Shown here: in pieces, positions 40,937 to 43,922 of the stretch
Layout of the letters: every line of letters begins with the position of its first letter
Position numbering within the stretch: position 1 is the stretch's first letter
NCBI RefSeq assembly: GCF_026586625.1
Contig: NZ_JAODIW010000006.1
Coordinates: 692,927 to 756,926, forward strand
Length of the DNA: 64,000 nt
Direction of reading: 5' to 3'
Source: Halobium salinum
Lineage (GTDB): Archaea; Halobacteriota; Halobacteria; Halobacteriales; Haloferacaceae
Made by a program: the position numbers and the translations under genes
The notes under the pieces: model-generated
What the model was told of the DNA's origin: nothing
Seen by the model: the letters and a program-made list of their open reading frames with translations, nothing else
Databases searched by the model: none

Positions 40937-41172
40937 CCGACCGAGCACGATTCGTCGCGGGACGCTCGTGGTCGTGGCAGCGACACACGTTGCGTGAGGG
41001 GCCCTCCGGTTTCGGGGAAGGAACCCACTACTGGCTGTGGGCAGTGCCTACCGGAGCGAGCGGCGGGTGTCTTCGAGCGCCGACCGTGAGCGCTGAGTGG
41101 CCCGACGTCGCGTCGCCGACCGCCCGACACCGGAGTGAACAGGCACAAGACCCCGCGCGGCCGACACGCCAC

Positions 41173-41769
41173 ATGCGCCAGTTCCTCGTCACCGGCCACG
41201 ACGCGCCGACGACGCCCGACTTCTCGCTCGACGACATCGCCGGCGGCGCCGGCCGCCTCGACGTGCTCTGTCGGTGTGTCAACTCCGCGTTCTTTCTCTC
41301 GCACGCGCTCCGGGAGGACGTGCGAGTCCACCTCGTGCTCGGGGACGAGTTCACGGTTCGCTTCGAGGGGTCCGAACTCCGGCGGTTGAACCCCGACGAA
41401 CGCAGTACGGCGGCGCTGATTCGCGGCGCACTGGAGGCTCGCGACGGAGCCATCGGGCACATGCCCGCCGACGCGAGTCCGGGCGTCTCGACATACCGGA
41501 TGGGGTTCGAGGAGACGCTCGAACGGGTCGCCGAGGACGCGACGGTCGTCGAACTCCACGAGGACGGCGACCCGGTCGTCGAGGTCGAGCCACCCGAGGA
41601 CCCTCTGTTCGTCCTCTCCGACCACCACGATTTCACCGGGGCGGAGGCGGACCTGCTCGCCGACGTGGCGGAGGAGCGGGTCCGTATCGGACCGGAGCGC
41701 CTCCACGCCGACCACACGATTACGGTCGCACACAACTACCTCGACACGGCCGGGTACACGCGGTACTGA
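41173..41769 (+). CDS. trmY: tRNA (pseudouridine54-N1)-methyltransferase TrmY
   Basis: 198 residues from [20 protein letters not shown]. The archaeal TrmY pattern is clear: [40 protein letters not shown] and the C-terminal [19 protein letters not shown]. It is a SPOUT-class methyltransferase that methylates pseudouridine 54 in tRNA to m1psi in place of bacterial ribothymidine. Length fits the family. It lies 101 bases ahead of a tRNA gene on the same strand, though co-transcription is not shown. Confidence 0.95.
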
Positions 41770-41870: not shown

Positions 41871-41943
41871 GGGCCGGTGGGGTAGCTTGGTATCCTTCGG
41901 CCTTCGGGTGGCCGTAACCGCGATTCAAATTCGCGCCGGCCCA
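41871..41943 (+). tRNA. tRNA-Pro(CGG)
   Basis: 73 bases without intron. Acceptor arm GGGCCGG pairs with CCGGCCC and ends in A73. The anticodon stem CGGCC/GGCCG encloses loop UUCGGGU, giving anticodon CGG. The T arm is CGCGA-UUCAAAU-UCGCG, a perfect stem. CCA is not encoded. The last 22 bases and the 28 following are repeated at 42120-42169, an old integration trace. Confidence 0.95.
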
Positions 41944-41971
41944 CTTCTCCCGCACCTCGTCCGGCGAGCGC
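41922..41971. repeat. First copy of a 50-base direct repeat spanning the tRNA-Pro 3' end
   Basis: Starts in the T arm of tRNA-Pro and extends 28 bases past its end. 48 of 50 bases match 42120-42169. Likely one border (att site) of a former integrated element. Confidence 0.85.
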
Positions 41972-42119
41972 CGCGTAGCGTGTGCTCGCGCTTACCGAGT
42001 GCGGATGCAGAGCCTACGTGGAAATCTGAACCGAGGAGCAAAGCGAACACCGCGAGCGCAAGTGACCGCGTTCCCGCGAGCGAAGTGAGCGAGAGCCAGC
42101 GAGACCGCCGGCCGCGCGT

Positions 42120-42169
42120 GATTCAAATTCGCGCCGGTCCACTTCTCCCACACCTCGTCCGGCGAGCGC
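42120..42169. repeat. Second copy of the tRNA-Pro 3'-end direct repeat
   Basis: Matches 41922-41971 except for C to T in the acceptor part and G to A eleven bases later. It lacks the 5' two-thirds of the tRNA, so it is not a tRNA gene. Confidence 0.85.
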
Positions 42170-42485: not shown

Positions 42486-42530
42486 GGTATGTTTCTCCAT
42501 ACTAATACCGGTCCGGCTCTATCGGCCTCT

Positions 42531-43922
42531 ATGGACGGAGAACCCGGGAGCGAAGACACAGTCCTCATCCCGACTGGCTACGACCCCGCCAGCTATCCGT
42601 GTGTACGGTCGCTCGGAAGCAGGGGCGTTCGCACGCTCCTCGCGTCCGAATTCGACGACGTACCGGCGTCGGCTTCGCGTTTCTGTGACGAGGTGACACG
42701 CGTTCCCGCGCCCGGCGACGACCTCCTCGCCTACAAGGATGCGCTCGTCGGCCTCGCGGCACGGCCGGACGTACGGACTGTCGTCCCGATTCGACCGGCG
42801 GACACCTACGTGCTCTCGAAGTTCCGAGAGGAGTTCGAGCGATACGTGACGCTCGTCGTCCCCGAGATGGAGACCATGCGGACGGTCCACGACCGGGTCC
42901 GACTCGCCGCGGCCTGCGAGGAGGCGGGCGTCCCCGTCCCGCGGACCCGTCGACTCGGCGAGATGGACGACTGGAGCGGCCAGCACATCATCAAGTCGCG
43001 GTACAACATCCTCGTCGACGAGTACATGCCCGAGTACGAACCGGGCGAGAACCGGGTGGTCAAGGACGTGACGCACGTCCGCCAGGGCGACACGCCCGAC
43101 ACCGACGAGCTGGTCGAGCGGATGGGTCACGAGCCCATCGTCCAGGAGTTCATCCCCATCGAGGACGAGTACATGTTCGCCGGGTTGTACGACCACGGCG
43201 AACCGGTCGCGACGTTCCAGCACAAGCAGATTCGAGGCAACTCCTACACCGGCGGCGGCGGCGTCTACCGGAAGTCGATGTACGACCAGGAGATGGAGGA
43301 CGTGGCCCGAAAGCTCCTCTCCCACCTCGACTACCACGGGATCGCCTGCATCGAGTACATGAAACACGCCGAAACCGGCGAGTACGTCCTGACCGAGATC
43401 AACCCGCGGATGTGGCAGTCGCTCCCCTCGACGGTCCGCGCGGGCGCGGACTTCCCGCACTACTACTGGCAGCTCGCGACCGGCCAGAAGGACCGCATCG
43501 AACCCGGCTACGAGCTGGGTGTCGGCAGTCACCTCCTCTACGGGGAGGTCGGCCACCTCCTCTCCGTCCTCACCGACGACTCCGACCTCGTCGAGCGCCC
43601 CTCCTTCGTCCGTCGGGCGTGGGAGATCGCCGCCTCCTGTTACGACGAGCCGAAGTTCGACATCCTCCGGTTCGACGACCCCGCCCCGTTCCTCCGCGGT
43701 GTCGCTCACATGCTCCCGGACGGTGAGGACCTCCGGGGGAAGCTCCCCTTTCTAGGCGGACGGCGTCGACCCGGAGACGACGACGGACCGGAACTCGGTG
43801 ACGGGAGCGAGGGCGCGTCCGCGACGGTGACCGTCGAAGCCGACTCGGACGCCGCCGTCGACGGGACGGTGCCGGGGCAGTCCGACGAGTCACCGACCGA
43901 GTCGGTGACCTCCGACGACTGA
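42531..43922 (+). CDS. ATP-grasp carboxylate-amine ligase
   Basis: 463 residues from MDGEPGSEDTVLIPTGYDPA. ATP-grasp features: RVRLAAACEEAGVPVPRTR, the HIIKSRYN segment with the ATP-binding Lys, PIVQEFIPIEDEYMFAGLYD, GGGGVYRKS (flexible loop) and YVLTEINPRMWQSLP with the metal-binding Glu-x-Asn. This haloarchaeal family is annotated as carboxylate-amine ligase; the joined substrates are unknown. The last 50 residues are an acidic, Ser/Asp-rich tail. A TATA-like box 25-30 bases upstream supports the ATG at 42531; an earlier in-frame ATG at 42489 overlaps the promoter palindromes. Confidence 0.9.
   Translation: MDGEPGSEDTVLIPTGYDPASYPCVRSLGSRGVRTLLASEFDDVPASASRFCDEVTRVPAPGDDLLAYKDALVGLAARPDVRTVVPIRPADTYVLSKFREEFERYVTLVVPEMETMRTVHDRVRLAAACEEAGVPVPRTRRLGEMDDWSGQHIIKSRYNILVDEYMPEYEPGENRVVKDVTHVRQGDTPDTDELVERMGHEPIVQEFIPIEDEYMFAGLYDHGEPVATFQHKQIRGNSYTGGGGVYRKSMYDQEMEDVARKLLSHLDYHGIACIEYMKHAETGEYVLTEINPRMWQSLPSTVRAGADFPHYYWQLATGQKDRIEPGYELGVGSHLLYGEVGHLLSVLTDDSDLVERPSFVRRAWEIAASCYDEPKFDILRFDDPAPFLRGVAHMLPDGEDLRGKLPFLGGRRRPGDDDGPELGDGSEGASATVTVEADSDAAVDGTVPGQSDESPTESVTSDD

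Follow-up and report, generated by a model that had tools for sequence, protein, structure and literature searches.

A tRNA-tail repeat behind tRNA-Pro(CGG) of Halobium salinum and its tandem relatives at haloarchaeal tRNA genes

The window analysed here is a stretch of 64,000 nucleotides of the Halobium salinum genome (contig NZ_JAODIW010000006.1, C11:692927-756926), in which an intact tRNA-Pro(CGG) gene is followed by a second copy of its own 3' end (Table 1). Directly upstream of the tRNA lies a gene with a match to PF04013, a putative RNA methyltransferase family (window 40990-41769), which we take to be TrmY, an enzyme acting on the tRNA T-loop; the downstream neighbour (window 42489-43922) encodes an ATP-grasp-like protein. 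The tRNA-Pro(CGG) gene is not among the 47 tRNAs found by Rfam's tRNA model in this genome. The direct repeat covers 50 nt (41922-41971 and 42120-42169, 198 nt from start to start) with 48 of 50 positions identical, and in a repeat search it takes an extended form of 63 nt at 89% identity. Each copy joins 22 nt of tRNA-Pro (positions 52-73, one mismatch) to 28 nt of 3' flank (one mismatch), and a GAGCG-rich spacer of 148 nt (41972-42119) lies between them. The coordinates thus confirm the description on which the original prediction was built, a 48/50 repeat that begins in the T arm, runs 28 bases past the tRNA and whose copies are separated by about 150 bases of GAGCG-rich filler.

Table 1. 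Features of the tRNA-Pro(CGG) locus, in window coordinates
Feature	Position	Strand	Remarks
Intact tRNA-Pro(CGG), positions 1-73	41871..41943	+	ARAGORN 41871-41944; cloverleaf in RNAfold; N73 = 41943 by reading
Tail: tRNA positions 52-73 (T-loop, 3' T strand, 3' acceptor strand, N73)	41922..41943	+	
3' flank, repeated behind the second tail	41944..41971	+	27/28 identical to 42142-42169
Flank hairpin GCGAGCGCCGCGTAGCGTGTGCTCGC	41964..41989	+	RNAfold -19.1 kcal/mol for 41960-41995
Probable degenerate antisense T-arm	42020..42032	+	By eye, against other units
Loop resembling type A of other units	42033..42070	+	By eye
GAGCG-rich stretch	42071..42106	+	By eye, like the tRNA-Pro units of relatives L017, L023, L026, L032
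Second tail	42120..42141	+	21/22 identical to the first
Second copy of flank start	42142..42169	+	27/28 identical to 41944..41971

The original prediction interpreted the repeat as the scar of an integrated element. Part of this interpretation stands, as a partial 3' tRNA copy that starts in the T-arm is present downstream of the intact gene (41922-41943, 42120-42141). The lone scar of a single lost element is not supported, because the same layout occurs at 22 of 46 tRNA genes of this genome and units of similar length recur in tandem behind many tRNAs. The genome has nine PF00589 (integrase) matches, none of them in the window, and the 148-nt spacer is too short for an integrase gene. Searching the genome with the 330-nt locus returned one full match and two short partial matches. 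One of the partial matches (L002) falls on a gene for tRNA-Asp, whose 3' tail is likewise repeated downstream, across a spacer rich in GAGCG. The tRNA-Pro repeat is therefore not an isolated case.

All tRNA loci of this genome (G000) and of two others, G175 and G363, were surveyed, the three belonging to three families of one order. A copy was defined as a match with at most 4 mismatches to the 21 nt of tRNA positions 53-73, located no more than 400 nt downstream of the tRNA. The set for H. salinum consisted of Rfam tRNAs with tRNA-Pro(CGG) put in by hand; since the Rfam model missed this gene, the same tRNA is possibly absent from the sets of the other genomes. A downstream copy of the gene's own tail was found at 61 of 130 tRNA genes (22/46 in H. 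salinum, 22/43 in G175 and 17/41 in G363), whereas controls with 21 nt from the 5' end of the tRNA and with 21 nt from its middle gave 0 of 130 each and the upstream side gave 1 of 130. Tails of other tRNAs gave 192 hits in 5516 comparisons (48/2070, 84/1806 and 60/1640), with isoacceptors that have like tails counted as hits. Within 600 nt the three genomes hold 98 tail copies in total, at a median spacing of 134 nt (range 44-344, 10th-90th percentile 102-171 nt). Many copies are perfect: 36/61 of those in first place behind the tRNA, 14/24 in second place, 5/9 in third, 1/4 in fourth and 0/1 in fifth.

Copies with no more than 2 mismatches, 78 in number, were used to measure the limits of the repeated segment. 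On the left, agreement with the tRNA is 1.00 at position 53, 0.90 at position 52 and 0.35 at position 51; it is 0.96 at N73, 0.69 at +1, 0.54 at +2 and mostly 0.3-0.47 thereafter on the right; identity within 53-73 is high through the selection of copies, and the drop outside is the actual result. The limits of the tail in the window match these 52/53-73 limits. The short tRNA copies in the three haloarchaea are a repeat family with sharp limits. The tRNAs that carry them are not conserved across the three families, which share 11, 9 and 9 carriers against 9.9, 8.1 and 8.4 expected.

The sequence between two tails has a recognizable organization. The flank starts T/C-rich and carries a hairpin, and in most units it is followed by the T-arm of the adjacent tRNA in antisense, then by a loop and by the next tail. 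For the antisense arm, the best match over 13 nt has a mean of 10.2 with its own tRNA and of 8.9 with the other tRNAs in the same genome, while shuffled spacers give 7.3, and in 73 of 99 units no more than 10% of the other tRNAs fit it better than its own. Judged by base pairing across units, the loop stem covaries: the inner 5-bp stem of one loop type has 83 of 95 Watson-Crick pairs in 19 automatically collected hairpins, compared with at most 79 in 1000 shuffles, and 253 of 275 in 55 hairpins hand-picked from printed lists, compared with at most 190 in 2000 shuffles. Among 70 distinct hairpins the sense strand is the better folding one in 56 and the antisense strand in 13, and the outer stems contain 40 G.T against 13 A.C pairs. 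The predicted inner-stem folds have more wobble on the antisense strand (50 vs 24). In wobble, the outer and inner stems favour opposite strands. By loose patterns, 54 of 83 loops fit a forward type and 5 of 83 fit as a reverse complement.

Similar units also occur behind different tRNAs. When 1365 unit pairs with tRNA tails differing at 4 or more of 21 places were compared, 11 agreed at 75% or more over the whole spacer, and the best 8 of these 11 all come from G175, a genome with exactly identical loops behind different tRNAs and with alternating repeated units at tRNA-Ser. The top pair (92%) joins tRNA-Lys(TTT) with tRNA-Arg(CCG), each of which keeps its own tail. A scan for foreign tails yielded five rows, three of them the neighbouring tRNA-Met or its copy and two of them weak (4 mismatches), and thus no convincing case. 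Rfam searches of eight loci returned, besides tRNA, just four matches, all below the gathering score, with E between 0.13 and 0.82.

The unit in the window is a degenerate, worn member of the tRNA-tail repeat family and not a one-off scar. Its antisense arm matches at the level of chance (7/13, equalled by 278 of 500 shuffles). A near-identical flank hairpin is found 3' of tRNA-Asp in L002 and in the tRNA-Asp units of Haloarcula. The repetition of the flank itself, as in the window, is unusual, with 8 of 98 copies agreeing at 80% or more over +1 to +25.

The tRNA-Pro locus was compared in relatives, as had been suggested, using the best matches at 29 loci (166 of 170 genomes matched in the family search). 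One spacing common to all relatives, which the original prediction had named as the sign of a static repeat, was not observed. A second tail occurs in 6 of the 29 loci (L013, L017, L022, L023, L026 and L032), at 121-162 nt, and L032 has a threefold tandem of 131 nt; the remaining 23 have no second tail at the threshold used. No integrated element was noticed on reading the 1.5-kb flanks of these loci.

The distribution of the units was followed further with the hairpin pattern GATTYGAAYC-N25-55-GTTCRAATC, which describes the antisense-loop-sense arrangement. It is present in 354 of 391 Halobacteria genomes and in 80 of 86 genera, with the reversed-pattern control at 0 in every row. Outside the class but within the same phylum it occurs in 2 of 311 genomes, once each, and the reversed control matches once. 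Thirty loci from the class scan were read, and 27 of them have a tRNA gene no more than 1.5 kb away, with the hairpin 3' of that gene; among the three exceptions, L108 belongs to a tRNA-Arg about 8 kb off (L264). As far as pattern matching can tell, antisense-loop-sense units are spread class-wide in Halobacteria.

The genus of G363, Haloarcula, allowed a single slot to be compared among species, each represented by one genome. Of 32 genomes, 30 were read at tRNA-Asp. Their locus is orthologous by its surroundings, the upstream 700 nt being shared in 29 of 30 and the sequence past the final tail in 25 of 30. There are no extra tails in 8 of the 30 genomes and one to four in the other 22. Directly after tRNA-Asp, 29 genomes have one of three main flank types (13, 9 and 7 genomes) and one genome has a flank of its own. 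Genomes disagree on the order in which the types follow each other: A precedes B in 3 and B precedes A in 8, while A precedes C in 3 and C precedes A in 6. An origin of all present arrangements by deletion from one long ancestral array is disfavoured by these conflicts, and no more than disfavoured because cluster A is wide, taking in 32 of 59 flanks under single linkage, and the same type can occur more than once in an array. The flank type behind the last tail also differs between Haloarcula genomes, and part of the change is therefore not simple insertion. Flanks and loops appear by eye to assort separately. One orthologous slot thus differs in unit content between species.

In archaea, tyrosine integrases target tRNA genes, and integration restores the tRNA and leaves a partial 3' copy downstream, as described in parts of PMC8371274 and PMC3119063. 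The statement of the original prediction that such enzymes can leave copies of this kind holds for tails of this length: section 18 of PMC3119063 describes a prophage of Haloquadratum walsbyi in tRNA-Ala that is bounded by exactly the 22-nt tail stretch, and when re-read in the genome its tRNA-Ala copy corresponds to positions 52-73. The possibility that this prophage ends in a degenerate unit was dropped after a shuffle test (8/13, equalled by 182 of 500). The three census genomes contain 9, 5 and 7 PF00589 matches. Gene-bearing versions of the units were sought at 39 further tRNA loci read to 20 kb, allowing at most 3 mismatches beyond the near range, and distant tail copies were found at three of them, exact at L303 (with a longer match of 32 nt) and L322 and with 3 mismatches at L308. 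L322 is the tRNA-Arg(TCT) of H. salinum, with an exact 21-nt tail copy at +2154 (2.15 kb downstream); the intervening ~2.1 kb hold a frame for an HTH_10/BAT regulator and a truncated integrase-like frame, which stays below the Pfam cut-offs (18.5 and 17.1 bits), resembles annotated haloarchaeal integrases and matched nothing in PHROGs. A frame resembling integrase N-termini lies within about 150 nt of the distant tail copy, on its inner side, at L322, L303 and L299 (Haloquadratum). The right ends of the integrase-bearing elements L322 and L299 have no antisense arm above chance, and the ~8 kb between tRNA-Arg and the next tails in L264 show no obvious integrase on their reading frames.

Longer copies are found at tRNA-Glu(TTC) of H. 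salinum, where a first integrase match follows the tRNA, a second one lies about 14 kb on together with an exact tRNA copy of 62 nt, and a further exact copy, of 47 nt, is found about 82 kb on. Elements of the tRNA-Glu kind therefore leave longer repeats. The stretches have the appearance of two integrase-bearing elements in tandem (C11:1437457-1519608; L057, L079, L078), and by eye a degenerate-unit-like sequence lies behind the last tRNA-Glu copy.

These results lead us to propose, tentatively, that short tRNA-anchored units recombine at the T-arm, perhaps through a tRNA-targeting tyrosine integrase acting in trans, and that the window holds a worn member. The unit would comprise the tRNA tail (52/53-73), a hairpin-bearing flank that starts T/C-rich and, in most cases, a structured loop next to an antisense T-arm, and the T-arm and tail would serve as the recombination site. 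Units would be inserted at the 3' end of the tRNA, displacing older tails downstream, and with this point of entry the tRNA always retains a working tail. They could also disappear or be swapped between tails. The agent would most probably be a tyrosine integrase working in trans on units without genes, assisted by recombination at short repeats, and its recognition site may be the hairpin into which the antisense-loop-sense sequence folds; the cell need not benefit. The T-arm tail is plausibly an attachment site both for elements that encode integrases and, in trans, for gene-less units; recombination of the att-site kind is the best-supported mechanism. Against an integrase speak the small numbers of integrase matches (9, 5 and 7 per genome) and the observation that no recombinase is linked to the short units. 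The chance-level antisense arms at the right ends of L322 and L299 and in the window's own unit, the inner-stem wobble that favours the antisense strand and the varying flank type behind the last tail also count against the proposal. In addition, a tail carried in a mobile unit predicts some foreign tails, of which none convincing was found; this, together with foreign flanks beside native tails, fits target duplication better than att exchange by an integrase. An insertion with duplication of 21-22 bp of target would likewise agree with native tails beside shared flanks.

Part of the unit shuffling fits recombination between short repeats, and it is possible, although on balance unlikely, that recombination is all there is: old units would be duplicated, deleted and converted through the 21-22-nt tails and short arms or by replication slippage, with no dedicated recombinase or mobility, and template switching at an imperfect palindrome would keep arms and stems complementary. 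The tandem identical units of L032 and the alternating units at tRNA-Ser of G175 resemble unequal exchange, flanks and loops assort separately, and deletion between 10-19 bp repeats is described for Haloquadratum in part of PMC3119063. However, near-identical intervals behind different tRNAs with native tails require exchange exactly at N73, where acceptor sequences differ. Closely spaced tails should moreover delete readily, yet hairpins are kept in 354 of 391 genomes, which suggests continued gain. That the transcribed hairpins serve tRNA 3' end formation, termination or regulation is improbable. Their constant position on the 3' side (27 tRNA-linked loci of 30 read), the better folding of the sense strand, the excess of G.T over A.C in the outer stem and the covarying inner stem would agree with such a role, but carrier tRNAs are not conserved between families, unit presence and copy number differ within Haloarcula, and a search of the eight loci up to E = 1 gave no Rfam family of this kind. 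It is quite improbable that the tails are att sites of deleted proviruses or plasmids. The 22-nt tRNA-Ala copy that bounds the Haloquadratum prophage (PMC3119063, section 18) and the 21-nt copy at tRNA-Arg(TCT), which bounds ~2.1 kb that include an integrase-like frame, are precedents for such an origin, whereas the uniform length (102-171 nt), the recurring hairpin types and the stacking of units in tandem behind half of the tRNA genes are unlike random remnants, and the tRNA-Glu elements of the same genome leave repeats of 47-62 nt.

The units can be set against known systems. They resemble the products of tRNA-targeting tyrosine integrases in the partial 3' copy downstream of an intact tRNA and in the 21-22-nt copies that lie beside integrase frames in haloarchaea; they differ from att repeats in forming ~130-nt tandem units too short for an ordinary gene, in their tRNA-matched antisense arms and in occurring behind roughly every second tRNA gene. 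The cassette arrays of integrons consist of tandem units separated by imperfect attC hairpins with covarying stems and AAC...GTT arms, and insertion takes place at a fixed first site. The tail units have a possible likeness to these in the tandem arrangement, the imperfect hairpins with covarying stems, the AAC...GTT arms and, on the proposed reading, a fixed first site of insertion; in contrast, they contain no cassette genes, their arms follow the neighbouring tRNA, and the 98 listed spacings of 44-344 nt are too small for ordinary integron cassettes. We consider it unlikely, if worth stating, that an integron-like system is at work, with haloarchaeal tRNA genes as platforms to which minimal cassettes attach. 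A recombinase would insert very small hairpin units at position 53/54 of the T-arm, and with each of them a working tail would be brought in or duplicated. Arrays free of genes would thereby lengthen, shorten and be rearranged behind about half of the class's tRNA genes, at no cost to the tRNA.

Casposons, with Cas1-type insertion, share the target at the tRNA 3' end, the TCAAATC of the T-arm and the direct repeats; as described in part of PMC6614799, TCAAATC is recognised and the direct repeats of 14-15 bp lie beyond it, whereas the 21-22-nt repeat of the tail units (52/53-73) includes it. A CRISPR array is out, as the repeat is the tail of the neighbouring tRNA and the spacing of 44-344 nt is not near-constant. 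The PATEs and small mobile repeats of Haloquadratum, of which the PATEs are IS605-related and one small-repeat group measures about 110 bp, are likewise short gene-less haloarchaeal elements with palindromes, and a link to tRNA is not in their description in the relevant part of PMC3119063. A palindrome reported behind about half of one archaeon's tRNA genes is similar in the share of genes concerned but is short, fixed, without tail copies and reported as species-specific. Partial tRNA copies at element ends are known; tandem tRNA-tail units were not found described in the titles and opening abstracts of the open-access literature, nor was a class-wide family of them with tRNA-matched hairpins, and subscription journals may hold a description.

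If the proposed reading is correct, a fast-changing repeat family sits by the 3' sides of tRNA genes across a class of well-studied archaea, and T-arm sequences act in recombination far more often than integrated viruses imply. Annotation of prophages and att sites would be confused where short tRNA copies are mistaken for element ends. Haloferax and Haloarcula would offer a tractable system for the spread of gene-less units without harm to essential genes.

Searches of mobile DNA gave few matches. The spacer of the window matched neither plasmid nor phage records. The tRNA-Asp units of Haloarcula matched no phage record and two plasmid records, of which the Natronorubrum match adjoins a tRNA-Val and the Haloarcula match lies within a tRNA-like gene cluster; a tRNA-Tyr array gave just one 31-nt bacterial match among plasmids. 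On the Haloarcula halophila plasmid NZ_CP119561.1 (237657-242714; L297), ARAGORN predicts 22 tRNA-like genes within about 3.1 kb, with a gene for a TROVE-domain protein downstream of them, and one tRNA-Cys-like sequence is apparently split in the T-arm by a unit-type hairpin. Among viral contigs 71 stretches match, of which 40 were left out (G+C of at most 0.48 in the filter, or counted per contig). By eye, L110 (metagenome 3300000875) is the sole haloarchaeal-looking contig among the matches listed. It has a tRNA-Gly 3' copy from near the anticodon loop on, which looks provirus-like by eye, and then host-like sequence, with a tRNA-Glu and its hairpin unit about 0.9 kb beyond the tRNA-Gly 3' part. 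The bacterial-looking contigs L135, L148, L159, L162, L174 and L177 contain long near-perfect palindromes around a T-arm-like sequence, which end mostly in CCATGCCCCGCTAC on one side.
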